From contig JAPLFY010000104.1 in NCBI GenBank assembly GCA_026390435.1, positions 1 to 46,001 of the forward strand: a stretch of DNA of 46,001 nt, given 5' to 3'. Position numbers and translations under genes: made by a program. This DNA is from Pseudomonadota bacterium. GTDB lineage: Bacteria; Bdellovibrionota_B; Oligoflexia; Oligoflexales; CAIYRB01. The notes beneath the pieces are model-generated. The model was not told where the DNA came from, made no database searches, and saw only the letters and a program-made list of their open reading frames with translations. Below are positions 3,729 through 45,652 of the stretch, piece after piece. Within the stretch, counting starts at the first letter, position 1; each line of letters starts with the position of its first letter.

Positions 3729-5521
<1,793 letters not shown>

Positions 5522-8404: not shown

Positions 8405-9709
8405 TTAGCGGTTCATTAACTCGGCAATCGGACCCGTCCCCAAATTTGGATCACCAAAAGTCGGGTTATTGATGCCAGCCGCCTGGATCAAACTGACCAA
8501 TAAATGGTTATAAGATTTGTTCTGCAACTGCAGGGACTGCCCCGCTTTTAGGCTTCCACCCGCTTTACCCGCCACCACGCAGGCGATGTCGTTGAAGTCA
8601 TGAGCGTTAGAATCGCCGATTTCCGTGGTCGCCAGAACCAGGCTGGCATCGAGCAGGTTTTTATCACCAAGGGAGACGCCCTTCATTTGAGTCAGCAAAT
8701 AGGCCAGTTGCTCCATGTACCAGCGTTGGCAGGCGGCAAAATCATTGCCGTACAATCCGTTAATATCACCGCCGTAGTGCGAAAGGTCGTGATGACGCCC
8801 ACGGCTAATATTCGGCCCACCCGCAAAATTTAAGGTAGTCGGACTGACGGCATGAGACCACTGTAGCAGTCCCACCGGAGTGATACCGCAAGCCAGAGCC
8901 TGTACCATGATATCCATCATGACGCGGCCCACCTGGCCAAACACTTCATTTCTCTCGAATGATTTGGGATAATTTGGCTCTTGATCGGGTATCGAGAGGC
9001 CACGCCAATCTAAGGAACTCTTACAGACCCCACCGGATGATCCCTGAGCCGCCCTTCTTTCGAGCTCGCGCAGAGCTTCAAGATGAACCGCAAGTTTTGC
9101 CTGTTCTATGGTTCCCAAGCGATATCTGAGTCCCTGAATTTCACCACGCGCATAATCTAGCACACTGCGCTTTTCCGCCATCAGGTCATTGCGGTCCTCT
9201 AGGCCTCCTGCATTGAAGAGGTCATAGAAAGCGCGCTTTGGATTATCTTGAATAGCTGCTCGCGCGCCGGACGACAAAAAAGAAATTTGTTTACTTGGGT
9301 CCGTCTCGAAGTTAGCACCGACTCCAAGAGAGAGACTCTTCTGCCGGTAGTTACCACCCAGACTATCCCCCAAGAAGTTATCGATCGAATACCTTTGGTT
9401 GTCACTAGCAGTACCGGTCAGACAAAATCCAGCTCCGGCCTCATGGCTACCGCCAAGGCGGTAAACGAGACCACGAATCAAATTAATATCAGAGCGCAGA
9501 CCATTGAGTGGGGCAGTGATATCCGGTAGGGCTCCGTTGCCGTCCGGGAAAAAGCGCTGAGCGATATTGCCATCCGGATAATAAACGAACAGAGCTCGCA
9601 CTGGCGTGGCGGCGTAAGCTTCTTCTTCAAGCAGGGTGCGCATCAAAGGAATCGCTAAGCAGGTCATGCCTGCGTAGCGCAAAAGTCCTCGGCGTGATAT
9701 CGAGCCCAT
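8405..9709 (-). CDS. DUF1552 protein, Tat-exported
   Basis: This 434-residue protein starts with a twin-arginine leader (SRRGLLRYAG, hydrophobic stretch, cleavage near AYA-AT), so it is exported folded and may carry a cofactor. The body has DUF1552 hallmarks: FVYYPDG near residue 42, a GGSHEAGAGF segment near 86, repeated His and Asp residues in GRHHDLSHYGG, and a late TTEIGDSNAHDFND segment. The fold is related to secreted sulfatase/alkaline-phosphatase-like proteins (DUF1501 group), but the function is not established. GGGAGAG precedes the ATG. It is the last gene of an operon with a DUF1592-group haem protein and a cytochrome, as in planctomycetes and myxobacteria. Confidence 0.85.
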   Translation of the reverse strand: MGSISRRGLLRYAGMTCLAIPLMRTLLEEEAYAATPVRALFVYYPDGNIAQRFFPDGNGALPDITAPLNGLRSDINLIRGLVYRLGGSHEAGAGFCLTGTASDNQRYSIDNFLGDSLGGNYRQKSLSLGVGANFETDPSKQISFLSSGARAAIQDNPKRAFYDLFNAGGLEDRNDLMAEKRSVLDYARGEIQGLRYRLGTIEQAKLAVHLEALRELERRAAQGSSGGVCKSSLDWRGLSIPDQEPNYPKSFERNEVFGQVGRVMMDIMVQALACGITPVGLLQWSHAVSPTTLNFAGGPNISRGRHHDLSHYGGDINGLYGNDFAACQRWYMEQLAYLLTQMKGVSLGDKNLLDASLVLATTEIGDSNAHDFNDIACVVAGKAGGSLKAGQSLQLQNKSYNHLLVSLIQAAGINNPTFGDPNLGTGPIAELMNR

Positions 9710-9718
9710 ATCTACTCT

Positions 9719-9757
9719 CCCTGTTTACGTCGCCCTGTTTACGTCGCCCTGTTTACG
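9719..9757. repeat. 14-bp tandem repeat in the gap before the DUF1552 gene
   Basis: A unit CCCTGTTTACGTCG occurs twice in full and a third time in part (11 bases). The array covers the stop codon of the DUF1592-group gene and the short spacer before the DUF1552 Shine-Dalgarno sequence. Read on the minus strand, each copy contains a TAA, so the terminator codon of the upstream gene appears to have been duplicated into the spacer. Copy-number change would alter the 43-base gap without affecting either protein. Confidence 0.85.
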
Positions 9758-11657
9758 GCTGGCGTCGCCTGAAAGCGTCTAGAGTTGGCACTTGCAGAAA
9801 TATCGTCGACACGCGTTTACCACCGCTGACAAATGCAGAGTCCAAATCCCTAACAGCACAGGCAATCTTTTTGTCATTATCCTGCCCGGCTGCAAACCTA
9901 TAAACCTGTTTGCTCATACAGCTTTCGGCCTGAGCGCTGGTGGCCAAAAATCTACCAAGTGCGGCAGTACCTTCGAACATGTTCTTCTCGCCGCCGGGAC
10001 CGAAGACGATACCTCTCGCGTCCACAGGCCGACCAGCGTCACTCTGTTTAAATCGCCCGATAGCGTCCATATCTTCCATACCAAAGCCAATGCCATCGAT
10101 CCGAGTGTGACAGATTGCGCAAGATGGGTTTGTCGAATGACTAGCAAAACGCTCGCGCACAGAGGCATTTGGATCACGCGGCGGCGGCGTAATTTTAAGC
10201 GAGGGCGGCGGTGGCGGAACCACTTGGCAAAGAAGACGTTCGAGAACAAAAACTCCGCGTTTAATTGGCTCGGAGTTATCATTTCCTGCATAAGTCGCTA
10301 GGATACTAGCGTGACCTAGTAGGCCGCGACGCTCTGGCGAGCGGTAACGGATAAAACCACCCGTAGGCACGCCATCGTAAAGGGAGCTAAGCGCACCGTC
10401 ACCGATGGTGTATTCGGACTGAAAAAGATCGGCAAATGAGCCATTTTTATCAGTCACTACGTCGGTAAAAAAATCATTGGTCTCATCGTACGCTTTACGG
10501 CGCAGTGAGCTATCGAAGGCTGGGAAGAGAACGGCATCTTTATTAACGCCGAGCACACTCTCGGTACCGAGCCAAGACGATGTGAAATAACCGAGGTTTT
10601 CCTTCGCTTTTGCATCTTTCCAAAGTCGCTTAGCTTCGGCAGCAATAGTCGCTTTATCCGTAAGTTTGCCGGCATCTGCCAGTGCCATCAACTGATCATC
10701 CGGTGGCATCCCCCAGAACATATAGGACAGGGCCTGAGCCATCTCCCAAGAGCTCAGCTCGTAATAAGAGCCCTTTAGCGCACCAAGTTCAAAACGATAA
10801 AGAAAACGCGGCGCCATCAGTAAACCCTGAATAACACGCTCTAATCCATCATCAAAATTGGCTCCGCTTTGAAACAGGGTCAACAGCTTCGCCGACTCTT
10901 CTTGATTAAGAGGCCCGCGCCATGCTTTTTTGCCGAAACTACGGATGAACTCCCCGGCACAGCTGGCATCGCGCTGCGCGCACGCCACATAGCTGGATAG
11001 TTTTTTGATCATAGTGCTGGAGACAATTTTAGCAGCCCTGTAATGGGCTTCGGCATGAGCGTCCGTTACTAAGCCATTGGCCTCTTGATTATCAAAACCG
11101 TGACTGCGTAGCTCCTTCGGGAAGTCACTCACGACGTCGGTCGTGATGCCTGTAAGGCTGGTGATCGTCCGTTGATATTCGCGCGCAGTTAAAAGGCGAA
11201 GGATGCGTGGACCATATAAAGGACTGTTTTGATCGCAGGACAAATCAAGGGGGGGGAAACGCCCACCGCCTGCGTCACAAACATAAATAGTCACTGGATT
11301 TGGGCCTGGTTTCAGATCAAAGGTGTGATCCTCTCCGCAGCCTGTGCTACTCAGCACCAGTTGATCGTTTTTAAAGTATTCTAGCTGAAAACTGGTCCGT
11401 TGCGGCTGCACCTGCACTTCGATAACGCCTTGACCGCGCGTTATTTGGAACAGGCTACCGACATCTTTAGACTCACCCGCCGGCCAAGCTCGGAGCTCCA
11501 TCCGGTCGTATTCTTCTGTGCCGATCTCCTTTACGCTCACTGTTGCAAGCTTCGACCCTGCGCCTCGACCCCCTTTGCGTTTAGCGGTCTGACATGACGC
11601 GGCACCGACGGAGCCGATCAGCAAAAGCCAGGTTATTGTCGAAGTAGCGCTCATCAT
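9753..11657 (-). CDS. DUF1592-group (planctomycete-type) monohaem c-type cytochrome lipoprotein
   Basis: This 634-residue protein has a signal sequence ending in GAASC, a plausible lipobox (Cys about 22). Residues of about 37-135 form a domain also found in the cytochrome encoded upstream. Then come the usual modules in order: DUF1587-like (LTAREYQRTI, about 165), DUF1595-like (KAWRGPLNQEE, about 250), DUF1592 (LLMAPRFLYRFE, about 285), DUF1588 (GLLGHASIL to RLLCQVVPPPPP, about 450-500) with a CAICH haem-binding motif (about 527), and a DUF1585-like C-terminus. It probably works with the cytochrome and DUF1552 partners in a periplasmic redox process; the substrate is unknown. It starts 3 bases after the upstream stop. 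Confidence 0.84.
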   Translation of the reverse strand: MMSATSTITWLLLIGSVGAASCQTAKRKGGRGAGSKLATVSVKEIGTEEYDRMELRAWPAGESKDVGSLFQITRGQGVIEVQVQPQRTSFQLEYFKNDQLVLSSTGCGEDHTFDLKPGPNPVTIYVCDAGGGRFPPLDLSCDQNSPLYGPRILRLLTAREYQRTITSLTGITTDVVSDFPKELRSHGFDNQEANGLVTDAHAEAHYRAAKIVSSTMIKKLSSYVACAQRDASCAGEFIRSFGKKAWRGPLNQEESAKLLTLFQSGANFDDGLERVIQGLLMAPRFLYRFELGALKGSYYELSSWEMAQALSYMFWGMPPDDQLMALADAGKLTDKATIAAEAKRLWKDAKAKENLGYFTSSWLGTESVLGVNKDAVLFPAFDSSLRRKAYDETNDFFTDVVTDKNGSFADLFQSEYTIGDGALSSLYDGVPTGGFIRYRSPERRGLLGHASILATYAGNDNSEPIKRGVFVLERLLCQVVPPPPPSLKITPPPRDPNASVRERFASHSTNPSCAICHTRIDGIGFGMEDMDAIGRFKQSDAGRPVDARGIVFGPGGEKNMFEGTAALGRFLATSAQAESCMSKQVYRFAAGQDNDKKIACAVRDLDSAFVSGGKRVSTIFLQVPTLDAFRRRQP

Positions 11658-12631: not shown

Positions 12632-14131
12632 TCAGTCCACGGCCCCGAGCCTAAGTCCGCGCGGGATGAACCACTTCTCGAACCACCCGAACACATATTG
12701 TATCCCAATTGCCATCGCCGCGGCGGGAATTGCTCCAGTTAGGATAATTGCCATATCGTCGTGACGCACGCCCTCAAGAATTGGCTCGCCGTATCCACCT
12801 GCCCCAATGATCGCACCGATCGTAGCGGTACCGACGTTCAAAATCGCAGCAATCTTTACACCTGCGATAATCATAGGCGATGCCAATGGCAGTTCGACGA
12901 CCCAAAGCCGGCGCCAAGACGACAGTCCCAAAGCCTCGGCGGATTCACGCAAGGACGGCGCGATACCTGTCAGGCCCTCATAGGTATTTTTCATGATAGG
13001 CAGGGTGCCATAGATAAACAGCGCCGCTAGCGCTGGTGGGTACCCAACACCGAGCACCGGAATTAAACACACCAATAGAGCTAAAGAAGGAATAGTTTGG
13101 GCGACACCAACCACGCCGAGCAATAGATTGCCGACGCGCCGATAACGCGCAGCTACGACCCCTAGAGGGATAGCTACCAGAATATTGAGAAAAAGCGGAA
13201 AGAAGACGAGAAGTAGATGCCTTCTTGTGTCTTCACCAACCGTATCCAAAGCCTCTTGCAGGCGGCTATGTTGCTCACCGTTAGGGGTGACTAGTCCAAG
13301 CGACGCCAGGAAATCCTGCGCAACATCACCCTCGCTCTTTTTCTGGATCTTAACAGCAGCGTTCATCGCCACCATCTTTGCCTCGGTGACGTTGCCTTCC
13401 AACTGACTAAGCGCCTTGGGCAGTGCCGGGAACTTCTTGGCACTATCGAGACGGTAGAGATAAACAGCTTCATACGTGGGAAAGACCTTGAGATCGTCCT
13501 CGAGCCGCAGGATATCGTAGGCCTGAATCTCGGCATCGGTGCTGTATAGATTCGTTGCATCGATTGCTCCGGAAGCCAATGCCCGGTAAGTAATCTGATG
13601 CTCCATGACGGATATCTTTTCTTGCGGCAGATGATAGCGATCGCGAATTAAAGGCCATCCATCCATCCGATCGACAAAATCATTGCCAAAGCCAAATTTG
13701 AGGTGAGGATGGTCAGCTAGGTCTGAAATGCGGCGGATGCCGAGGTCGGTAGCCCGAGCTGCAAGCATGCCAATGATGTAGGTGTTACTAAATCCAAGCG
13801 ACTTAGAGACCCCTACACCGTACGGAGCAAGAGCTGCGGCAAGGTCAAAATTGCCCTCATAATTAGAAACGCCGAGGGTATCTCTTATGATGGTACCGGT
13901 GTAATCGCCGTAGGCGTCAATCTCTCCCGCTAGGAGCGCCTTCCACAGAATGGGACTATCACCAAGACTTTGGGAATGATTAGCCGGGGCTCCGTTGGCA
14001 CGGACTAACTCGGTCAACACGTCACCAAGAATCACAGCCTCGGTAAATGTCTTACTCGCTACGACTATTCTTTTTCTATGACCGTGTGCTGATGCCGTTG
14101 CGGCGCACACGCAGAAAAATAAAAAGAGCAT
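12632..14131 (-). CDS. Osmoprotectant-type ABC transporter: fused substrate-binding protein and permease
   Basis: This protein has about 499 residues if it starts at the ATG at 14131, which gives a clean signal peptide (LFLFFCVCAATASAHG). The frame stays open to 14275, so a longer start is possible. The first ~280 residues are an OpuAC/ProX-type binding domain (KTFTEAVILGDVL, AGEIDAYGDYTGT). The last ~200 are a BPD-type permease with several helices and the EAA-like loop AEALGLSSWRRLWVVELPLA. It probably imports glycine betaine, choline, carnitine or a similar solute, or ergothioneine as in EgtU-type fusions. No OpuCA/ProV-type ATPase lies beside it; the nearest ATPase is of the amino-acid type. 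Confidence 0.84.
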   Translation of the reverse strand: MLFLFFCVCAATASAHGHRKRIVVASKTFTEAVILGDVLTELVRANGAPANHSQSLGDSPILWKALLAGEIDAYGDYTGTIIRDTLGVSNYEGNFDLAAALAPYGVGVSKSLGFSNTYIIGMLAARATDLGIRRISDLADHPHLKFGFGNDFVDRMDGWPLIRDRYHLPQEKISVMEHQITYRALASGAIDATNLYSTDAEIQAYDILRLEDDLKVFPTYEAVYLYRLDSAKKFPALPKALSQLEGNVTEAKMVAMNAAVKIQKKSEGDVAQDFLASLGLVTPNGEQHSRLQEALDTVGEDTRRHLLLVFFPLFLNILVAIPLGVVAARYRRVGNLLLGVVGVAQTIPSLALLVCLIPVLGVGYPPALAALFIYGTLPIMKNTYEGLTGIAPSLRESAEALGLSSWRRLWVVELPLASPMIIAGVKIAAILNVGTATIGAIIGAGGYGEPILEGVRHDDMAIILTGAIPAAAMAIGIQYVFGWFEKWFIPRGLRLGAVD

Positions 14132-14453
14132 CAATGAAAACCTGCGGAGCAACTGCAAAATAACAGGCTCGCTCGCATCCACTGACGATGCCAAACGACG
14201 AAGTGACTTTCCCCTACCCTGTCGTATCCACACGCTCAAACACCACCGCCTTCGTTTATAGTAGGCACAGTCCACCCATCAACCCAACATCTACATTGCT
14301 TACTTCCCACACTACTAAAGTAGCGTCAAGGCAGCATAACCATTGTTGAAAGTCTAGGTCTCTGACACCAGCCAGACGCGCTTGGCTGCACAGAGCGCGT
14401 ATGTTGTGCTGATTACTAAGGTAAAAATCCTGCGGCCGCATCGCAGCTGGGCC
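14132..14453. other. Upstream region of the osmoprotectant transporter fusion
   Basis: This stretch lies between the preferred start of the fusion gene and the stop of the amino-acid transporter ATPase gene. Both genes are on the minus strand, so it should contain the fusion gene's promoter. The first 144 bases are frame-open with the fusion gene but encode a basic, Cys/Trp-rich sequence unlike a natural N-terminus. I see no clear operator, terminator or riboswitch. Confidence 0.4.
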
Positions 14454-33757: not shown

Positions 33758-36700
33758 TCAGTAAAGCACCATACCTTCCACCCACCGCACTCCTCCGTCC
33801 GTGCCGTCATAATAAGCAGCTGAAGGCGACGCATTCACCGGATTGATTTTTAAACTACAGTATTTGCCAGTGTCCCCTGCCTCGCCATCAATGGTACGAA
33901 ATGCCCAGTTCAAGTCTTTATTTCCGTATACCAGGTTTCCTTGCGTTGAATCGTAATAGCAAACGTGAGGACGATCACTCGCATCGAAAGCAAGGCTAGC
34001 ATATTTGCCTACGTCACCGGCACTGCTGACAGTTGTCACTTGCCATGTTCCGCCCACCTTTTCGGCATACTTTAAATCGAGCGTGCCACCATTATGGTAG
34101 GCTATGGCAGGATTACCGTCTGACTTCAAAGCTAGGCTGCTGTGACTTGCGCCACCGTTTGCGCTGTCAACAGTCTCGAACTGCCACGACGCACCGGTCC
34201 ATGATGCCAACTTTAAGGTGCCAGCAGTAACATCTGTGTAGGCTATTCGCGGATTATCCATGCTACCCAGCGCTAGTGACGCGTATTGACCCACATCGCT
34301 GCTGTCATCTACCACTTCGATCTGTGTACCGCTGGCGCTCATAGTCGCTAATTTCAGTTTTTTGTTGGTCTCATCGTAGTAGGCTATGATGGGATACCCG
34401 TCGCTACGCACGGCTAAGGAGGCATATTGGCCGACGTTTGCCGACTCATCGATGATGTCCAGGGTCCAAGTAGAACCGGTGCCCTCCGTAGCTAGTTTCA
34501 GGCGCCCTCGAGCTTCGTCGTAGTAGGCGATCACTTTACGTCCATTTGGTTTGATGCCAAGGCTGGCAAACTTACCAGTCCCGACGTTCGCATCGATTAG
34601 GGACACAGTCCAACTCGCACCATCGAAGGAAGCCAGCTTGAGACGGCGCCCAACGCTGTCGTAATAGGCGATGTGAGGTTTGCCGTTGCCATCGAAAGCG
34701 GCCGACGTATATTCGCCGATGCCCGGATTGACATCTACTGATGTCAATCCGACTGATGCCGCAAGCTCTGTAGTACCCATCGTCAGGTTGGTAATCCTCC
34801 CGATTGGATTCCCAAAAGGATTGATATTTATGCTGTCAACACCGGTCCCAGAGGGCTGGGTCCAGACGGCACCATTATCGTCCTCGATTGGATAGTAGAT
34901 AGTAGAGGCGCCATTGAAATATTGCAGCGCCGTGTCTTTCTCGCCAGTCGCGCCACTGTTTATTAATCTATAGCGTTTAGTATTGCTTGAATACTGGGTG
35001 AAGTTATTGCCATTTAATACCAATGACACACCATCGCTTGTGTTACGGATGGTCGGCACGCCATTCGCGTAGTTCAAACCATCCGAATCAGCTAACGAAT
35101 ATTGATTCCATGATAATAATGCGCCACGATTTGTCCATGAACCATTAACAAGCTCACTAAAAACCCACTGCGATCCAGCCTTAGAGTAGTAGAGCAGCCC
35201 AGCCGTTTCATTTGTCAAAGCCAACGAATTCGGTTTATACCTACGCCCATTCCATGAAATCAAAATCGGGTCGATACTTGAGCTGGCGACCAAAGTAGGC
35301 TGACCCCATGTTTGAGTTATCCAATCATAACTGATCGAAAATAATTCACGTATCGGAAGAAAAGAAGTAGGTCCCAGAGCAAGTACGGTCGAGCTTGATC
35401 CACTATCGAACAGACCAAAACCCTCCGGCGGCATAGCATAGGTGCCGCTCAGACCCGTTACGACCTTAGGAGCCAACGTCGTCCAGCTGTCATTAAGTTT
35501 ATTATAAGAGGCAATCGTAAGCTGTCTGGAATATTGCGGGCATAATATACGCCGCGAATTGGTTGAGATAATGAAATCAGTGAAAACAGTGCATATCGCA
35601 GACTGCCCAGTCCATCTGTTATTCTTGAAAGCGGACCATTTTATAGTGCCGGAGTCATTGACTAGCATTGCTGCAGTATCGGCAATCGTGAAGTCTAAGT
35701 CATTAGATGAGGTCGATGGAAAGCTGCTTCTTTCGCCTAAAAATTTGTAACGCCACGTAGCTGCACTCGTAAGCACAAGGCTACTAGCCGCTGAGTAAGC
35801 GCCAACATTCCCCGCAGCATCTCGCGCTCTGACTCGCCAGTAAACGGTGCCGACAGGAAGCACAGTGGTTGGCTTGAAGTTGGTCTGAAGTAGTCCAGTC
35901 TGATTTACCGCTGTAGTGGCAAACGTGCTTGAGGGTGAAATCTGAATGTCATAGCTCACTGCACCAGTGCCAGGGCTGGACCAGCTCAGCGTTGGCATGA
36001 GATTATTTGTCGGTGACGGGCTATATGCTGATAACACTGGGGCTGCGGGTGGCGTACTGTCGACAATGAAGGTTTGGGGCGCCGAAAATCCGCTTTCGTT
36101 GTTCGCCACATCAATCGCTGCCACGCGCCAGTAGTAAATATTATCAGTAAGATCGCTGGTCGGTGAGAAGCTGGTCGAGGTCAGCGAGGCGTCGTTAGCA
36201 ATTAAGCTGATAAAGGTTGTGTCTAATGCGATCTGCAATCTGTATTTCGCTGCACTTGAGACTGTGGACCATGTTAAGGACGGCCGCTTTGAGGCTGTTG
36301 GTGACGTGATGTTATTTGGAACAGGTGTACCGGGAGCCGTTGTGTCGATAACAAACGATCTCATAAGGCTGAATGGACTTTGATTGCCGGCACTGTCTAT
36401 GGACGCCACTCGCCAAAATATCGCCCCAACGGCAAGAGACAAGGTTGGGGTGTAATTGCTTGCAGTGATAGTAGCCAAGTCAATCACAGGATTGGCAAAA
36501 GATACCGAAGCAGACACTTGTAGACGGTAGCGCTGAGCTTCAGATGCTGCAGTCCATGAGAATGTGGGCCGAGTATCATTGAAAGGGTCAGGTATAAAGG
36601 CAACGGTCGGCACCTCAGGTGGTACGGTATCGACCTCAAAAGAAGTAGCCGTGGACCAACCTGAGATATTGCCGGCTCCATCTTTAGCTCTGATGCGCGC

Positions 36701-38512
36701 ATACCATAGGCCATCCGCCAGAAGGGGGCGCACTTCCTGAGATGTTGCGGTCATCCCACCAAATGTCCGAAGCATGGGGCTGTTGAAGGACGGACCGACG
36801 TCAACCTCAAGATCGTAAGAACTGGCATCTGTAACGCCGACCCAAGTAAGATTTGGCGTAGCATCGCTAGACAAAAAACCTAACGGGATACTCAACGCTG
36901 GTACCGCCGGAGGCGCGGCATCCACCGTCCACGAGTAGACCAACGGATGGGGATCGTCCCGACCCGTAACATCCCTAGCAGTTATCGTGACTGTATGCGG
37001 TCCGGATGTCAGATTAGTCCACGAAATCGGGGACAAGCATGGGGCCGCAGCATTGTTATCAAAGGCGCAGGTAAATGCAGCTTGTTTATTAGCGACGAAT
37101 ACTACGGTGCCTGAGGTTGAGGCAGTCAGGGGACTGGGTCCAGAGATCATTGTCGTATCGACTATCGACTGGTCAATCTGCCACGTAACCACAATTGGCG
37201 TACCGACATTTCCAGCCGCATCTGTAGCTGTGATTTGTACCGTGTGAAATCCTTGCAACAAGTTGGTCAAAACCAGAGGGTTGGTACATTGGAGGTAAGG
37301 GCGTCCGTCCAGCAGGCAGTTCCTGATCACGCCGGATTCGGTCGATGTGACATCGAGAGTGGCAGTCGTACTCGCGGCAACTGCATCCGGCTTAGATACG
37401 ACTACGAGGGAGGGAGCAGTGAAGTCTACATTCCAACGCCAAGTCGCAGGCGTCGCAGATACATTACCAGATGAATCGGTGGCCATTGCCTCGAATACAT
37501 GACTGCCCTCGGAAAGCCGCGCCAGAGCCGTGATTTGTGGACAGGGAGCGAATCGGTCGTTGTCCAGTCGGCAGGTAAAAGTGACTCCGGACTCGCCTGC
37601 GGTGAGTTCAAAGACAGCAACATTCGAATTCGAAATTAAAGCGGGACCAGAAGAAATCGTTACGGTCGGGGCCGTTGTATCTCGAGCCCTTAGCGTTACT
37701 AGCTCAAGATCCGCAACTTTTTTAGACAATACTAAGATGTTGGCTTTTGACTGGTAGGAATAACCATCTCGCTCATAGACCAGATCGTACTCACCCTCGG
37801 GTATGTAAAGTATTACAAACGCCCCGTCCTGGGCCGCCTTTGCGACGAATGACGTACCGGGGATATAGACATCCGTGCCGAGCGCTGAAGCACCATCACT
37901 CAACAACACTCTACCTGCGATCGCACCAGTCTCGGATAACGCAACCGTGCCCAGGTCGAGAGCACGACCACCGATCATGACCAAATTAGACAACCTTTTG
38001 GCATAGGTCTTCCCGTCCTTCTCGTAGGTCGCCACGATCGTGAAGGGCATTGAAGCTGCTTCAGCCGCGCGGTCGACTGCCACAGCTGCTGCAGGATTTG
38101 GGTTAGGCTGAGTAGCCGTAGCGAGAGCAGGACTGGCTAGCAACAGAGAAGCAGTCGCGCCGCCGGAGGGCAAATCAACGGATAGATCTGTCTTGATCGC
38201 GAGGGTGAAAGCACCAACGCTGTCGGTTGTCGCGATAACGCCGGCCAGACCTTCGATCCCGACCAATGCGCCCTGGACCGGAATGGGCGCTCCAGGACCA
38301 CTCTCGTCAAAATCAATTGCGATGATTCCAGCTATTTGTCCCGCAGGCAAACTGTTGCTTGGGCTGGGTTGAGTCGAGACACGCTCGTTGCCTTGAGTCT
38401 TTTCAACGGATGAAGTAGCAGCGGCGCCATCACTCGCGACCTTTTGCGTGCAACCCCAAAGATTACCCGTAATAAAAACCGCCGCCGCAAGGTTTTTCTT
38501 GGTGACCTTCAT
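33758..38512 (-). CDS. Very large repeat lipoprotein (Ig-like, Fn3-like and propeller-like repeats)
   Basis: This protein of about 1,584 residues starts at the ATG at 38512, after AGGAGAGG; the frame is open to 38581. A signal sequence ends in the lipobox LWGC (Cys21). In order there are two carboxypeptidase-regulatory-like segments (about 60-110 and 195-270), three Ig-like repeats with paired Cys and 'D-GN-W-VD' endings (about 280-545), four Fn3-like repeats with 'P-LSW ... YRLQ ... YWRV' patterns (about 546-930), a unique stretch, and seven repeats of about 45 residues built on 'YASLA ... IAYYD ... LKLA'. Seven such blades suggest a beta-propeller. It is probably a surface adhesion or binding protein; the ligand is unknown. 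Confidence 0.82.
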   Translation of the reverse strand: MKVTKKNLAAAVFITGNLWGCTQKVASDGAAATSSVEKTQGNERVSTQPSPSNSLPAGQIAGIIAIDFDESGPGAPIPVQGALVGIEGLAGVIATTDSVGAFTLAIKTDLSVDLPSGGATASLLLASPALATATQPNPNPAAAVAVDRAAEAASMPFTIVATYEKDGKTYAKRLSNLVMIGGRALDLGTVALSETGAIAGRVLLSDGASALGTDVYIPGTSFVAKAAQDGAFVILYIPEGEYDLVYERDGYSYQSKANILVLSKKVADLELVTLRARDTTAPTVTISSGPALISNSNVAVFELTAGESGVTFTCRLDNDRFAPCPQITALARLSEGSHVFEAMATDSSGNVSATPATWRWNVDFTAPSLVVVSKPDAVAASTTATLDVTSTESGVIRNCLLDGRPYLQCTNPLVLTNLLQGFHTVQITATDAAGNVGTPIVVTWQIDQSIVDTTMISGPSPLTASTSGTVVFVANKQAAFTCAFDNNAAAPCLSPISWTNLTSGPHTVTITARDVTGRDDPHPLVYSWTVDAAPPAVPALSIPLGFLSSDATPNLTWVGVTDASSYDLEVDVGPSFNSPMLRTFGGMTATSQEVRPLLADGLWYARIRAKDGAGNISGWSTATSFEVDTVPPEVPTVAFIPDPFNDTRPTFSWTAASEAQRYRLQVSASVSFANPVIDLATITASNYTPTLSLAVGAIFWRVASIDSAGNQSPFSLMRSFVIDTTAPGTPVPNNITSPTASKRPSLTWSTVSSAAKYRLQIALDTTFISLIANDASLTSTSFSPTSDLTDNIYYWRVAAIDVANNESGFSAPQTFIVDSTPPAAPVLSAYSPSPTNNLMPTLSWSSPGTGAVSYDIQISPSSTFATTAVNQTGLLQTNFKPTTVLPVGTVYWRVRARDAAGNVGAYSAASSLVLTSAATWRYKFLGERSSFPSTSSNDLDFTIADTAAMLVNDSGTIKWSAFKNNRWTGQSAICTVFTDFIISTNSRRILCPQYSRQLTIASYNKLNDSWTTLAPKVVTGLSGTYAMPPEGFGLFDSGSSSTVLALGPTSFLPIRELFSISYDWITQTWGQPTLVASSSIDPILISWNGRRYKPNSLALTNETAGLLYYSKAGSQWVFSELVNGSWTNRGALLSWNQYSLADSDGLNYANGVPTIRNTSDGVSLVLNGNNFTQYSSNTKRYRLINSGATGEKDTALQYFNGASTIYYPIEDDNGAVWTQPSGTGVDSININPFGNPIGRITNLTMGTTELAASVGLTSVDVNPGIGEYTSAAFDGNGKPHIAYYDSVGRRLKLASFDGASWTVSLIDANVGTGKFASLGIKPNGRKVIAYYDEARGRLKLATEGTGSTWTLDIIDESANVGQYASLAVRSDGYPIIAYYDETNKKLKLATMSASGTQIEVVDDSSDVGQYASLALGSMDNPRIAYTDVTAGTLKLASWTGASWQFETVDSANGGASHSSLALKSDGNPAIAYHNGGTLDLKYAEKVGGTWQVTTVSSAGDVGKYASLAFDASDRPHVCYYDSTQGNLVYGNKDLNWAFRTIDGEAGDTGKYCSLKINPVNASPSAAYYDGTDGGVRWVEGMVLY
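33760..34730 (-). repeat. Seven tandem propeller-like repeats at the C-terminus of the large lipoprotein
   Basis: Each unit of roughly 43-48 codons carries an aromatic- or Ser-rich strand (YASLA or a variant), an IAYYD-type strand and a final LKLA or LVYG-type strand before a variable loop. Units one to six are similar in sequence; the seventh is diverged and ends the protein. The boundaries are approximate, judged by eye from the translation. Confidence 0.7.
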
Positions 38513-38744
38513 GCGCCTCTCCTGACTTCCCGTGCCATTTGAGCATCCTTGCGAGCGCGGACGTGAAGTCCCCAATCCCAATGATCTCTGAGTGCATCGG
38601 AGGGATGCACAAGAACTTGAGTAATTTTAATTTCGGTAGTCAATTTGGAGCATTAAAAGCACAAGTATGAGTGACTAATATTTGGTCACAGGTAGAACAC
38701 TGAAGTCATATGGCCACCCCCTGCTTAGTTCTCTCGCCAAAATT

Positions 38745-42203: not shown

Positions 42204-43379
42204 GTGCTAATAAAAATCGTCAGCTTAATCTTTTGGCTGTGCTCCGCTGAATCAGCTCAGGCTGGCATCATTTTTTGGCATCAAGAAATTGGCGACAGAG
42301 ACTTCGTTTCGAAAATACTGAAAGACTTCCAAGAACAGTACGGCATTGCCGTTGAGGCAACGCTAATCGCTACGGATCACTATAAAAGCACACTGACCAA
42401 GCAGGTACAGAGGGGAGCTCTACCCGACGTCATCTTCTGCCCCGGTGATTATGTCAGTATGGCGGAGCAGCTAAACTTATCGCCGCTACCCAATGCGCTG
42501 AAGGTAAAAGATATAAGTAGCGACGTCTGGGTCACAACCACATCTAGCGGCAAACTATACGGCCTCCCGGTGATTCTGGGTAACCACCTCATGCTCTTTT
42601 ACAACAAATTGCTGGTAAAAGGAGCACCGACCTCATGGAGCCAATTCGCTCAAGGTCGCAAGACTCAGGATCCACCGGTGATTGGTTGGAACTTTTCTGA
42701 GATGTACTGGTTTGCGCCCTTCATTCAGGCATACGGCAGTGGAATAGTAAAAGACGCAGCTCCGAATCTAAATACACCGGCTATGGTTCAGGCTCTTAAA
42801 ACCTATAAAAAATTCGCTGACGAGGGCCTAGTCGATCGCCGCTGCTCCTACGATTGCGCGAGCAAAGATTTTTATGACGGCAAGTATCCATACGCAATCG
42901 ATGGTGACTGGGCCCTATCTTTAGCCCGGCAAAAGCTGGGCAAAAATCTCGGGCTCGCGAAATTACCCTCACTCGACGGGCACGAGATGCCCGCCATGTA
43001 TTCTACGATGGGATTACTGTTTCCGGGAAAATCCCTCTCGGGACCAAAGCGAGAGCAGATTATCAAACTCGCACGTTTCTTAGTTAGCGACTCCGTCCAG
43101 GGAGATCTTTGGCGCGTCCTACACCGAATCCCAGTCTTGAGCTCTGCCCGTAAGCAATTCGAGATTAAAGCTAACCAGGATGACAAGGTAATCTTGGGGG
43201 CGCTAGCTGCTGCTAAAGCCATGCCAAGCGACCCGGCAGTGGCCTACTCTTGGGAGGCCATGCGTCGCGGATTTCTTCGCTACCTTGGTGGCCAAGACTC
43301 AGCTGAGTACATTGCTCGCTATATGCAGGTCACTGCAGAATCAGAGCTGTCGAATCGCAAAGAAAAAGTACAAAAATGA
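42204..43379 (+). CDS. Periplasmic sugar-type ABC solute-binding protein (family 1), without transporter genes
   Basis: This 391-residue protein starts at a GTG after AGGGGGG. A signal peptide (SLIFWLCSAESAQA) is followed by a family 1 binding fold: IIFWHQE, LKDFQEQYGIAVEATLI, ALPDVIFCPGDYVSMAEQ, YGLPVILGNHLMLFYNK and later YAIDGDWALS. It would bind a sugar or other small solute in the periplasm. It is soluble rather than lipid-anchored. No permease or ATPase gene is adjacent; instead its stop overlaps, as ATGA, the start of a membrane phosphatase gene. It may therefore be the sensory ligand-binding partner of that phosphatase rather than a transport component. That role is an inference. Confidence 0.82.
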   Translation: MLIKIVSLIFWLCSAESAQAGIIFWHQEIGDRDFVSKILKDFQEQYGIAVEATLIATDHYKSTLTKQVQRGALPDVIFCPGDYVSMAEQLNLSPLPNALKVKDISSDVWVTTTSSGKLYGLPVILGNHLMLFYNKLLVKGAPTSWSQFAQGRKTQDPPVIGWNFSEMYWFAPFIQAYGSGIVKDAAPNLNTPAMVQALKTYKKFADEGLVDRRCSYDCASKDFYDGKYPYAIDGDWALSLARQKLGKNLGLAKLPSLDGHEMPAMYSTMGLLFPGKSLSGPKREQIIKLARFLVSDSVQGDLWRVLHRIPVLSSARKQFEIKANQDDKVILGALAAAKAMPSDPAVAYSWEAMRRGFLRYLGGQDSAEYIARYMQVTAESELSNRKEKVQK

Positions 43380-45241
43380 CACCTCTCACCTCTAGCACAA
43401 AAAGTTATCGCAAGGTCCTACTTGCAACGATTTTGCTCGCCTCTTCCCTGCCGATGATTTTGATATCAATCTTTCTGATGGCGTCTCTTTTTTCAAAAAC
43501 TCGTCAAAATGCAGTTGACGATTTGGACCTCCGGGCTTCGCAAACCGGGATCTATATCGAAGACGCCATAGATATTACGGTCTCACGCCTACTCACCATG
43601 GCTACCAGTTCTGACCTAATTCCGGCCGCTCAGTCCTCCATGTTTGGCGCGCAGGCAACTGATCTCATGGCGCGTTTCATCCAAGATAACCCGATAATGG
43701 AGCGTCTAGATCTGGTTAATCTTCAGGGCGAAACCACCGAGGTCGCGCCGCCTGGTCAAGCGTTTCAATTATGGAGCAAACAGCTTAAAAACCTATTCAG
43801 CGATCCGCCTACATCCGCGACCTCAATGAAATGGAATTTTTACCTAGCTAATATTTCATCACCCTCTTTAGTGATCGTAGTGCCACTAAAAGCCAACAGA
43901 ACGAATGGTGCATCTGATGGTCCACCGCTAGGCTACATGATTGCTACCATCCCGTGGGAGAAGATCACGCCCATATTAAGTCGCCTAGCTGGCGAGCAAC
44001 TTATTGTTTCGCTATTTAATCACGAGACAAAAATAATCAGCGCTGGATACCACTCGTTAGATGATGTCGACGTGATTAAGCTAAGTAAACCATTACATAT
44101 TTATGGTTTAGAATCATACGCCTCTTTGCCATTCCATATTGAAATCAAGGCACCATCAAATCTCATACTTGGCAAAGTCGCTGGCGTGATGATTATCGCT
44201 TTATTCTCGGCCCTTATACTTCTGGCTGTGGTAACGGCTGTAAGTTTCATCGTCGCCAGGCGCATGAACAGGTATCTCGATCAGATTTCCTCGATGGTTT
44301 CGGCCTATGCTGACGGGCGATACGATTTTGATATGCCTACCTTTCGCTACGCAGAATTCGATCATCTAAAAGATCTGTTGAAAAATATGGGCAAAGAGAT
44401 CCTTCGGCAAATTGAAGACGAGAAATTAAAGGCAAGGTTAGAGGCTGAATTCGAATCGGCGCGATTGGTTCAGGCTGCACTCTTCCCTCCTCCGATAGTT
44501 TGTCCCGGACTAGATGTAAACTTTAGGTTCCAAGCTGCCTCCCAAACAAGCGGCGACTGGATCGGATATTTTTATAATGAACATATGCACCGGCTGCAGA
44601 TATTCATTGCGGATGTGACCGGTCACGGCATGTCAGCCGCCTTAATGTCGGGAGTTGGCTGCGGTGGCATTTACGGATACGAGATTTTAAAAGAGCTTGC
44701 TGCAGATGGGCCTGATCATTGGCGAGACCATCTCCTACACTGTGCCAGTGGTCTAAATACGGTATTTAACCTCACGGGTGGCAATTCCCGGATGATGAGT
44801 CTTAGCATCATGTCACTCCACCTAGGATCCGGTCACTTGGCGGTGCTCAATGCTGGTCACCCAAATCCCTGGCTCATTCGCCCAGATAATATTGATGTCA
44901 TGCCTTCACGGGGACCAATGCTCGGCCAGGAAGTGCGATCCAAGTTTGTAGTCAGCGAAGCTATACTAAAGCCCGGTGATGCACTGTTCGCATATTCTGA
45001 CGGGCTCGTGGAAAACAGCTCAGTTTCAAAGCAACGGTTGAGTCAGCGGAAAATTCGCGACCTCATATTGGCGGAGGGATCCGCCGCGGAGATCCTCGAA
45101 CGCGTGATGAATGCCGGCGACAGCATCTGGGGCGGCGAAGCACGTAAAGATGATGTGACGACGTTATTTATCAGATGGCTGGGTCCGATCACCGTAGAGA
45201 CGGCGATGCGTTCAGTTGGTAACCGTCTCAAAGCGGCCTAG
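43376..45241 (+). CDS. Membrane-anchored SpoIIE/RsbU-type PP2C phosphatase with an extracytoplasmic sensor
   Basis: This 621-residue protein has a transmembrane helix (about 13-37), a periplasmic domain of about 220 residues (Cache-like in length and position), and a second helix (about 263-291). A HAMP-like segment (MNRYLDQISSMVSAYADGRYD), a short coiled coil (about 335-370) and a SpoIIE phosphatase domain follow. Metal-binding motifs are present: QTSGDWIGYF, IADVTGHGMSAALMSG, SDGLVEN and KDDVTTLFI. It would dephosphorylate a Ser/Thr-phosphorylated protein such as an anti-anti-sigma factor, controlled by a signal outside. The gene overlaps that of the periplasmic binding protein by 4 bases, which suggests the sensor input. 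No anti-sigma or STAS partner gene is visible. Confidence 0.85.
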   Translation: MTPLTSSTKSYRKVLLATILLASSLPMILISIFLMASLFSKTRQNAVDDLDLRASQTGIYIEDAIDITVSRLLTMATSSDLIPAAQSSMFGAQATDLMARFIQDNPIMERLDLVNLQGETTEVAPPGQAFQLWSKQLKNLFSDPPTSATSMKWNFYLANISSPSLVIVVPLKANRTNGASDGPPLGYMIATIPWEKITPILSRLAGEQLIVSLFNHETKIISAGYHSLDDVDVIKLSKPLHIYGLESYASLPFHIEIKAPSNLILGKVAGVMIIALFSALILLAVVTAVSFIVARRMNRYLDQISSMVSAYADGRYDFDMPTFRYAEFDHLKDLLKNMGKEILRQIEDEKLKARLEAEFESARLVQAALFPPPIVCPGLDVNFRFQAASQTSGDWIGYFYNEHMHRLQIFIADVTGHGMSAALMSGVGCGGIYGYEILKELAADGPDHWRDHLLHCASGLNTVFNLTGGNSRMMSLSIMSLHLGSGHLAVLNAGHPNPWLIRPDNIDVMPSRGPMLGQEVRSKFVVSEAILKPGDALFAYSDGLVENSSVSKQRLSQRKIRDLILAEGSAAEILERVMNAGDSIWGGEARKDDVTTLFIRWLGPITVETAMRSVGNRLKAA

Positions 45242-45652
45242 TCGGACCCCAATTTGGCTTGCCGACATCAGCGCGCCCCACCCCCCCAACTCGGGCCAAA
45301 ACCGGCTTCACCCCCCTCGGTGAGCCTGTTTTTTTAAAAAAAATCACCTTGACGCAAAAAAAACTTACGATTTTTTTGCTCCCCCACTCGTCCACCGCCA
45401 AACTTTTCTTAATATTTACAATTACTTAAAATCCAAAGGCCGGAGGGTCGCGGGGTCAAAAATATTTAATTTTACCCAATTTATGCCATTTTAAATAAAT
45501 AAATCAGATATTTATCACTCATAGACGGACTTCTGCGGGCAACAAGTCAGTTAGCGTCTTTCGCTGTGTTAGGATACAAGGGTGTCAGATAGTCGGCGGC
45601 CTAATGGTTGGCCCTCGATGAATCACTTACTCGTTATCGGATAGAGAGAGAG
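45242..45652. other. Intergenic region before the RRM protein gene
   Basis: The first 100 bases hold C-runs and the terminator of the upstream operon. The middle (about 45400-45520) is very AT-rich. The last 130 bases form the leader of the RRM gene and end with GAGAGAGAG before its ATG. No ORF or recognisable operator is seen. Confidence 0.45.
45304..45335 (+). terminator. Rho-independent terminator of the binding protein / phosphatase operon
   Basis: GGCT-t-CACC pairs with GGTGAGCC, giving an 8-bp GC-rich stem with one bulged T and a 6-base loop. It is followed at once by TGTTTTTTT. It lies about 65 bases after the phosphatase stop. Confidence 0.75.

Follow-up and report, generated by a model that had tools for sequence, protein, structure and literature searches.

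Two overlapping genes in a bacterial draft genome probably encode a bipartite receptor, and we hold this reading with considerable confidence: a MalE-like solute-binding protein (SBP) would serve a membrane protein that has a double-Cache-like sensor in the periplasm and a PP2C phosphatase output in the cytoplasm. The observations behind it are the gene pair itself, its recurrence, its joint presence or absence across genomes, the exchange of outputs, the separation of these SBPs from transport SBPs, the folds and the catalytic motifs. The window analysed here (46,001 nucleotides) is the whole of contig G000:C42 in a draft genome of 4.28 Mb and 95% completeness.

The gene pair and its surroundings

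An initial annotation of this DNA had described a secreted, non-lipidated SBP whose gene overlaps by 4 bases that of a membrane phosphatase, with no permease or ATPase, and these points were all confirmed (Table 1). The SBP has a Sec signal peptide and lacks a lipobox because the residues F-W-L precede the signal-peptide cysteine. A small lipoprotein-like gene lies 5' of the SBP gene in the opposite orientation, and an RRM RNA-binding protein gene, cut by the contig end, lies 3' of a terminator-like hairpin. The overlap, the hairpin and the oppositely oriented upstream gene therefore delimit a two-gene unit; a promoter scan gave matches no better than chance. No permease or ATPase gene stands beside the pair; about 28 kb upstream lies the nearest permease recognised among the scanned genes, a glycine-betaine OpuAC-permease fusion (window 12632-14275, minus strand), in which binding and permease domains share a single chain. 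A contig search with the phosphatase returned one match, a near-identical copy in a metagenome bin labelled proteobacterium.

Other genes of the window were recorded as well. A 1607-aa, probably secreted protein with many repeats (e.g., GKYASLAF...PHVCYYD units) is encoded at 33758-38581 (minus strand), two neighbouring LigB-type dioxygenase-like genes with a 4-base overlap lie at 3786-5521 (plus strand), and a PSD/DUF1592-DUF1588 protein gene adjoins a DUF1552 protein gene (8405-9709 and 9753-11657, minus strand).

Table 1. Features of the two-gene unit, in window coordinates.
Feature	Position	Strand	Details
MalE-like periplasmic SBP gene	42204..43379	+	GTG start, 391 aa; PF13416 6e-23; AF2 model
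Predicted Sec signal peptide, non-lipidated	42204..42263	+	MLIKIVSLIFWLCSAESAQA^G, from sequence; hydrophobic core 5-23
ATGA overlap of stop and start codons	43376..43379	+	4 bases; equal overlap in G002, G005, G053, G054
Membrane PP2C/SpoIIE phosphatase gene with periplasmic sensor	43376..45241	+	ATG start, 621 aa; PF07228 2e-31
Transmembrane helix 1, residues 14-32	43415..43471	+	Hydropathy; AF2 helix 11-76
Periplasmic sensor, double-Cache-like, residues 33-267	43472..44176	+	AF2 model, Foldseek, profile match to KinD
Transmembrane helix 2, residues 268-286	44177..44233	+	Hydropathy
HAMP-like linker, about residues 287-345	44234..44410	+	Weak PF00672 in homologues; WalK match 254-346
PP2C/SpoIIE catalytic domain, residues 361-605	44456..45190	+	Pfam match and motifs
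Intrinsic-terminator-like hairpin and T run	45303..45336	+	-18 kcal/mol, z -3.2; site 45307-45324 plus T tail called by a scan that performs near chance

The solute-binding protein

Both its match to PF13416 (SBP_bac_8; 82.4 bits versus a cut-off of 27) and its two-lobe SBP fold place the protein among the extracellular solute-binding proteins. Its AF2 model (pLDDT 88) was closest in the PDB to 6ffl (TM 0.86), a maltotriose-bound MalE domain from Bdellovibrio, and next to maltotetraose- or maltotriose-bound MalE of Thermotoga. Residues D82, E166, W236 and W350 are common to the SBP and 6ffl in the alignment; we take them to correspond to the sugar-contacting D65, E153, W230 and W340 of E. coli MalE. 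These shared cleft residues make a gluco-oligosaccharide the likely ligand, most likely an alpha-gluco-oligosaccharide, as far as the class of sugar can be read from the model. The SBP is not a MalE equivalog: it scored 76.9 bits against NCBIfam PRK09474, for which 291 are required, and linkage to MalFGK is absent.

The membrane sensor and phosphatase

The initial annotation had assigned to the phosphatase two helices, a periplasmic sensor of about 220 residues and a HAMP domain. Two hydrophobic helices indeed enclose about 235 periplasmic residues; the HAMP part is unscored by Pfam in the window protein and is supported by the WalK match and by weak matches in homologues (0.009 in L048 and 3e-5 in Pseudoalteromonas).

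The AF2 model of the sensor is of modest confidence (pLDDT 77). Its best crystal-structure match by Foldseek was the pair of Cache domains of KinD (4jgq; TMt 0.77, E 2e-7), and LuxQ (3c30; E 7.5e-6) was among the significant matches, with LuxQ alone and LuxP-bound LuxQ both present. KinD was also the only PDB match of the sensor by sequence profile (9e-5). The double-Cache family PF02743 (dCache_1) is unmatched in the window phosphatase and below cut-off in the homologues, and the fold matches come from the pLDDT 77 model. The sensor is divergent, with 13-20% identity between distant pairs.

In the cytoplasmic part, PF07228 matches residues 405-601 (109.9 bits versus a cut-off of 25), and the catalytic motifs GD394 (GDW), D413 VTGHG, NAGH492, SD542G and KD592D (KDD) are kept. 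This match, together with the metal-binding Asp motifs, assigns the protein to the SpoIIE/PP2C (PPM) phosphatases, with activity as a prediction from sequence.

Recurrence of the pair and exchange of outputs

An SBP search of 56 relatives gave matches in 17 genomes, and up to 19 kb around the matches were examined. The matches split into two kinds, one beside PF00528 permeases and the other beside a membrane sensor protein; those in G014, G027 and G040, on short or unclear contigs, were left unclassed. In the sensor-linked kind, the first ~360 residues of the neighbour resemble those of the window phosphatase (G002, G005, G022 C3, G053, G054 C176 and two G011 loci). The SBP and receptor genes are divergent in both G011 loci, at one of which the pair adjoins a further Hpt/HATPase kinase gene, coding for a 7TMR-DISM-like sensor and running in the same direction as the SBP gene (L047:1876-4581).

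A survey of co-occurrence, put forward in the initial annotation as a check, came out in favor of the pairing. A sensor profile (A2) matched the periplasmic part in nine genes of eight genomes among 58 of the phylum, and SBPs of the signalling clade (profile A1) occurred in exactly those eight genomes; both profiles were trained on eight pairs, the genomes are not independent of one another, and the independent matches are those in G056 and Pseudoalteromonas. The remaining A2 matches in the 58 genomes, in genes outside the pairs, cover only the HAMP-like linker or its near surroundings. Eight of the nine sensor genes adjoin a signalling-clade SBP gene, and in the ninth, in G056, the SBP gene is split off by a contig break: only 198 bases separate the start of the sensor gene from the edge of its contig, this short stretch codes for an SBP C-terminus (PGFIDPLIWSALGRAISLHFSG), and a second G056 contig opens with the N-terminal part. 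Beyond the phylum, a plasmid search found one strong SBP match, in Pseudoalteromonas xiamenensis (NZ_CP099918, E 1e-53), and no other plasmid record below 1e-20. This SBP gene overlaps by 26 bases a hybrid kinase gene; the sensor profile aligns over nearly its full length with the N-terminal part of the kinase (47 bits). With this tenth locus the pairing of SBP and sensor genes is far beyond chance; at the greatest distance, identity to the other loci is 20-30% for the SBP and 13-20% for the sensor. A correlation between SBP and sensor identities (r = 0.95) was set aside, being driven by a few close pairs.

Four outputs are found behind the sensor. PP2C/SpoIIE domains follow it in four loci by Pfam (window, G002, G005 and G022), a LytS-type histidine kinase (PF06580) in three (G053, G054 and G056, with LytTR response regulator genes near the G053 and G056 pairs), an Hpt plus HATPase_c kinase in both G011 loci, and the HisKA plus receiver kinase in Pseudoalteromonas. 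The SBP tree groups G022 with one G011 kinase pair (bootstrap 90-91), and a PP2C tree neither supported nor rejected a single origin of the PP2C output (32% bootstrap). The SBP and the sensor are very probably a plug-in sugar detector because the relatives keep the outside pair and swap the inside half.

The double-Cache-like domain might instead sense a small ligand of its own, with the SBP as a second, independent input or only as a co-receptor that makes detection more sensitive, as CuaD does for CuaS. The SBP could be accessory in this way because double-Cache domains often bind small ligands directly; the top fold matches include such domains (KinD with pyruvate, Tlp3 and DctB), and CuaSR perceives cellobiose even without CuaD (PMC10384115). 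We regard this as unlikely, given that none of the surveyed genomes has the signalling SBP without the sensor or the sensor without the SBP, and given the low conservation within the sensor, which has no obvious conserved pocket.

Signalling and transport SBPs

That the SBP works with the membrane sensor and not with a transporter is well supported, as far as genome comparison reaches, by linkage, co-occurrence, output exchange and a separate SBP clade, and the link between the two proteins drawn in the initial annotation is thereby strengthened. In maximum-likelihood trees, a branch supported at 100/99 separates the signalling SBPs from their permease-linked relatives; this branch holds with and without short and long-branched rows, and also with Pseudoalteromonas added. 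Positions H26, L64, L73-P74, S93, W162, Y201 and F273-P274 are invariant or almost so among signalling SBPs, in contrast to transport SBPs. Separate transport SBPs beside permeases occur in G011, G022 and G054 in addition to the signalling SBP, and in G022 about 28 kb separate the latter from the closest MalG-like gene. A permease beside the pair in relatives had been named beforehand as a result that would speak against the module; the ten loci, at which SBP and receptor genes stay linked, have no permease, as expected of an SBP-dependent membrane receptor, and the permease-linked SBPs are distinct paralogues.

It is very improbable that the SBP is an orphan transport protein, delivering sugar to a distantly encoded permease and located before the phosphatase gene by accident. 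SBPs can serve distant permeases, and this one is a MalE superfamily member that keeps the cleft residues of a sugar binder. However, a MalG orthologue is missing from the window genome, in which the closest match (26% identical) is a PotC-like gene in an ABC operon called as polyamine type (PotABCD) by sequence and gene order. In addition, the receptor linkage is kept in ten loci despite different outputs, and the SBP clade is separate from the permease-linked SBPs in a phylum where three genomes hold both kinds. Conservation of SBP and sensor while outputs are exchanged would be difficult to account for without communication between the two.

Phosphatase target

The window genome has 14 clear SpoIIE domains and two weak or partial ones, among which the window phosphatase ranks second best; no recognised SBP lies beside the other SpoIIE genes among the neighbours scanned. 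Five SpoIIE paralogues of about 430-490 aa cluster together (two on contig C131 and one each on C149, C143 and C70). The paralogue closest to the window phosphatase, of 841 aa (L069:4535-10470, G000:C101), stands in a row with a Pfam-unmatched lipoprotein-like gene and a HEAT-repeat protein gene, and could be part of another two-part receptor. A plasmid search with the phosphatase gave catalytic-domain or partial matches only, and the three neighbourhoods examined (two Nitratidesulfovibrio and one Paracoccus) had no SBP.

The weak link of the initial annotation is the partner-switching cascade, which is not supported because its STAS and RsbW partners were not recognised, while search controls were positive. 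In a classical partner switch, the SBP would control the sensor, and the phosphatase would dephosphorylate a STAS antagonist, which would then release a regulator such as a sigma factor from an RsbW-like kinase. This is the textbook role of SpoIIE/RsbU phosphatases, and the PF07228 match with its intact motifs agrees with it. The closest PDB relative of the PP2C domain is Rv1364c of M. tuberculosis, which we take to carry partner-switching partners in one chain, and G022, also a PP2C case, is among the phylum members with small STAS frames. In the window genome, however, the sole PF01740 match is a 561-aa SulP-like frame, nothing matches STAS_2 above cut-off, and no stand-alone STAS antagonist was recognised; no STAS frame was found in G002, G005, G001 or G004 either. 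An RsbW-type kinase was recognised neither in the window genome nor in its nearest relatives, where HATPase_c_2 matches look like histidine kinases. Matches in control genomes (B. subtilis and others) show that the searches work; very divergent members may escape them. We therefore consider the classical partner switch rather unlikely here; the step may hold in other members of the phylum, G022 included.

The target of the phosphatase, for which the module itself has no gene, is probably not a canonical STAS antagonist, since the searches recognised no such protein in this genome. The phosphatase could reasonably act instead on proteins that the organism's Hanks-type kinases phosphorylate: Pkinase matches lie at eight places, six of them above cut-off. 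At one locus (L075:7048-13165, G000:C70), a SpoIIE gene lies one gene before a PEGA-domain Hanks-type kinase gene, possibly as a kinase/phosphatase pair.

Proposed mechanism and significance

In the bipartite receptor that we propose, the MalE-like protein, released from its transport role, would capture a periplasmic solute, most likely an alpha-gluco-oligosaccharide, and dock in its bound form onto the double-Cache-like domain. Gene linkage is what suggests this contact. Docking, or closing driven by the ligand, may then shift the helices and the HAMP-like linker and thereby alter the activity of the PP2C domain, in either direction, which would dephosphorylate a cytoplasmic target at Ser/Thr residues.

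More tentatively, and with slightly less than even expectation, we suggest that the MalE-derived SBP and LuxQ-like sensor are a portable cassette with four outputs, which here directly gates a PP2C phosphatase outside the STAS/RsbW switch, e.g., against Hanks-type kinases. Sugar would then control Ser/Thr dephosphorylation from the periplasm. Such a cassette, joined to four outputs and accompanied within genomes by paralogues that do not signal, would be a clean natural experiment, in which one can ask which SBP surface residues convert a transport protein into a signalling protein. It also raises the role of the many SpoIIE phosphatases in genomes without recognisable STAS partners.

Comparison with known systems

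LuxP-LuxQ of Vibrio is alike in that a periplasmic SBP controls a two-helix receptor of matching periplasmic fold without a transporter; unlike the present SBP, LuxP belongs to the ribose-binding type and has AI-2 as its ligand, and the receptor acts through a hybrid histidine kinase instead of a PP2C domain. In the clostridial CuaD-CuaS-CuaR and XylFII-LytS systems, dedicated sugar SBPs act with, and were shown to bind, membrane sensor kinases (PMC10384115), and LytS-type kinases also occur in the present receptor family. There, however, the CuaS/LytS sensor is helical, CuaD is lipidated, the output is two-component, and the target is a sugar-transporter operon. GlnH-GlnX-PknG of Actinobacteria feeds Ser/Thr phosphorylation from an SBP via a membrane protein (PMC9769921, PMC6069109), but with an amino-acid SBP, a four-helix-bundle GlnX and a separate kinase, and with no phosphatase in the receptor itself. 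RsbQ-RsbP of Bacillus is likewise a two-gene sensing module, whose sensing half is fused to a PPM phosphatase, histidine kinase or diguanylate cyclase across bacteria (PMC3183031); it consists of a cytoplasmic alpha/beta hydrolase and a PAS domain, whereas a periplasmic SBP and Cache are found here. MalE-Tar of E. coli also signals from maltose-binding protein through a membrane receptor, but there MalE still serves MalFGK and the receptor, Tar, is a four-helix-bundle chemoreceptor.

SiaA of Pseudomonas shares the TM-sensor-TM-HAMP-PP2C layout and was matched at 8.5e-7, but the window phosphatase, with 27.9 bits against a cut-off of 700 (NCBIfam NF038263), is not a SiaA. We know of no SBP partner of SiaA, which acts on the STAS protein SiaC.

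The initial annotation had called the module undescribed. SBP-activated chemoreceptors, sensor kinases, c-di-GMP enzymes and Ser/Thr kinases, but not PP2C phosphatases, are among the outputs listed in a survey (PMC9602780), and Cache-SpoIIE proteins are already known (PMC7584622). Our literature search, with most subscription literature outside it, found no report of an SBP paired with or controlling a SpoIIE/PP2C phosphatase. What is unusual here is thus the PP2C output, whereas signalling from an SBP to a receptor is a familiar principle.
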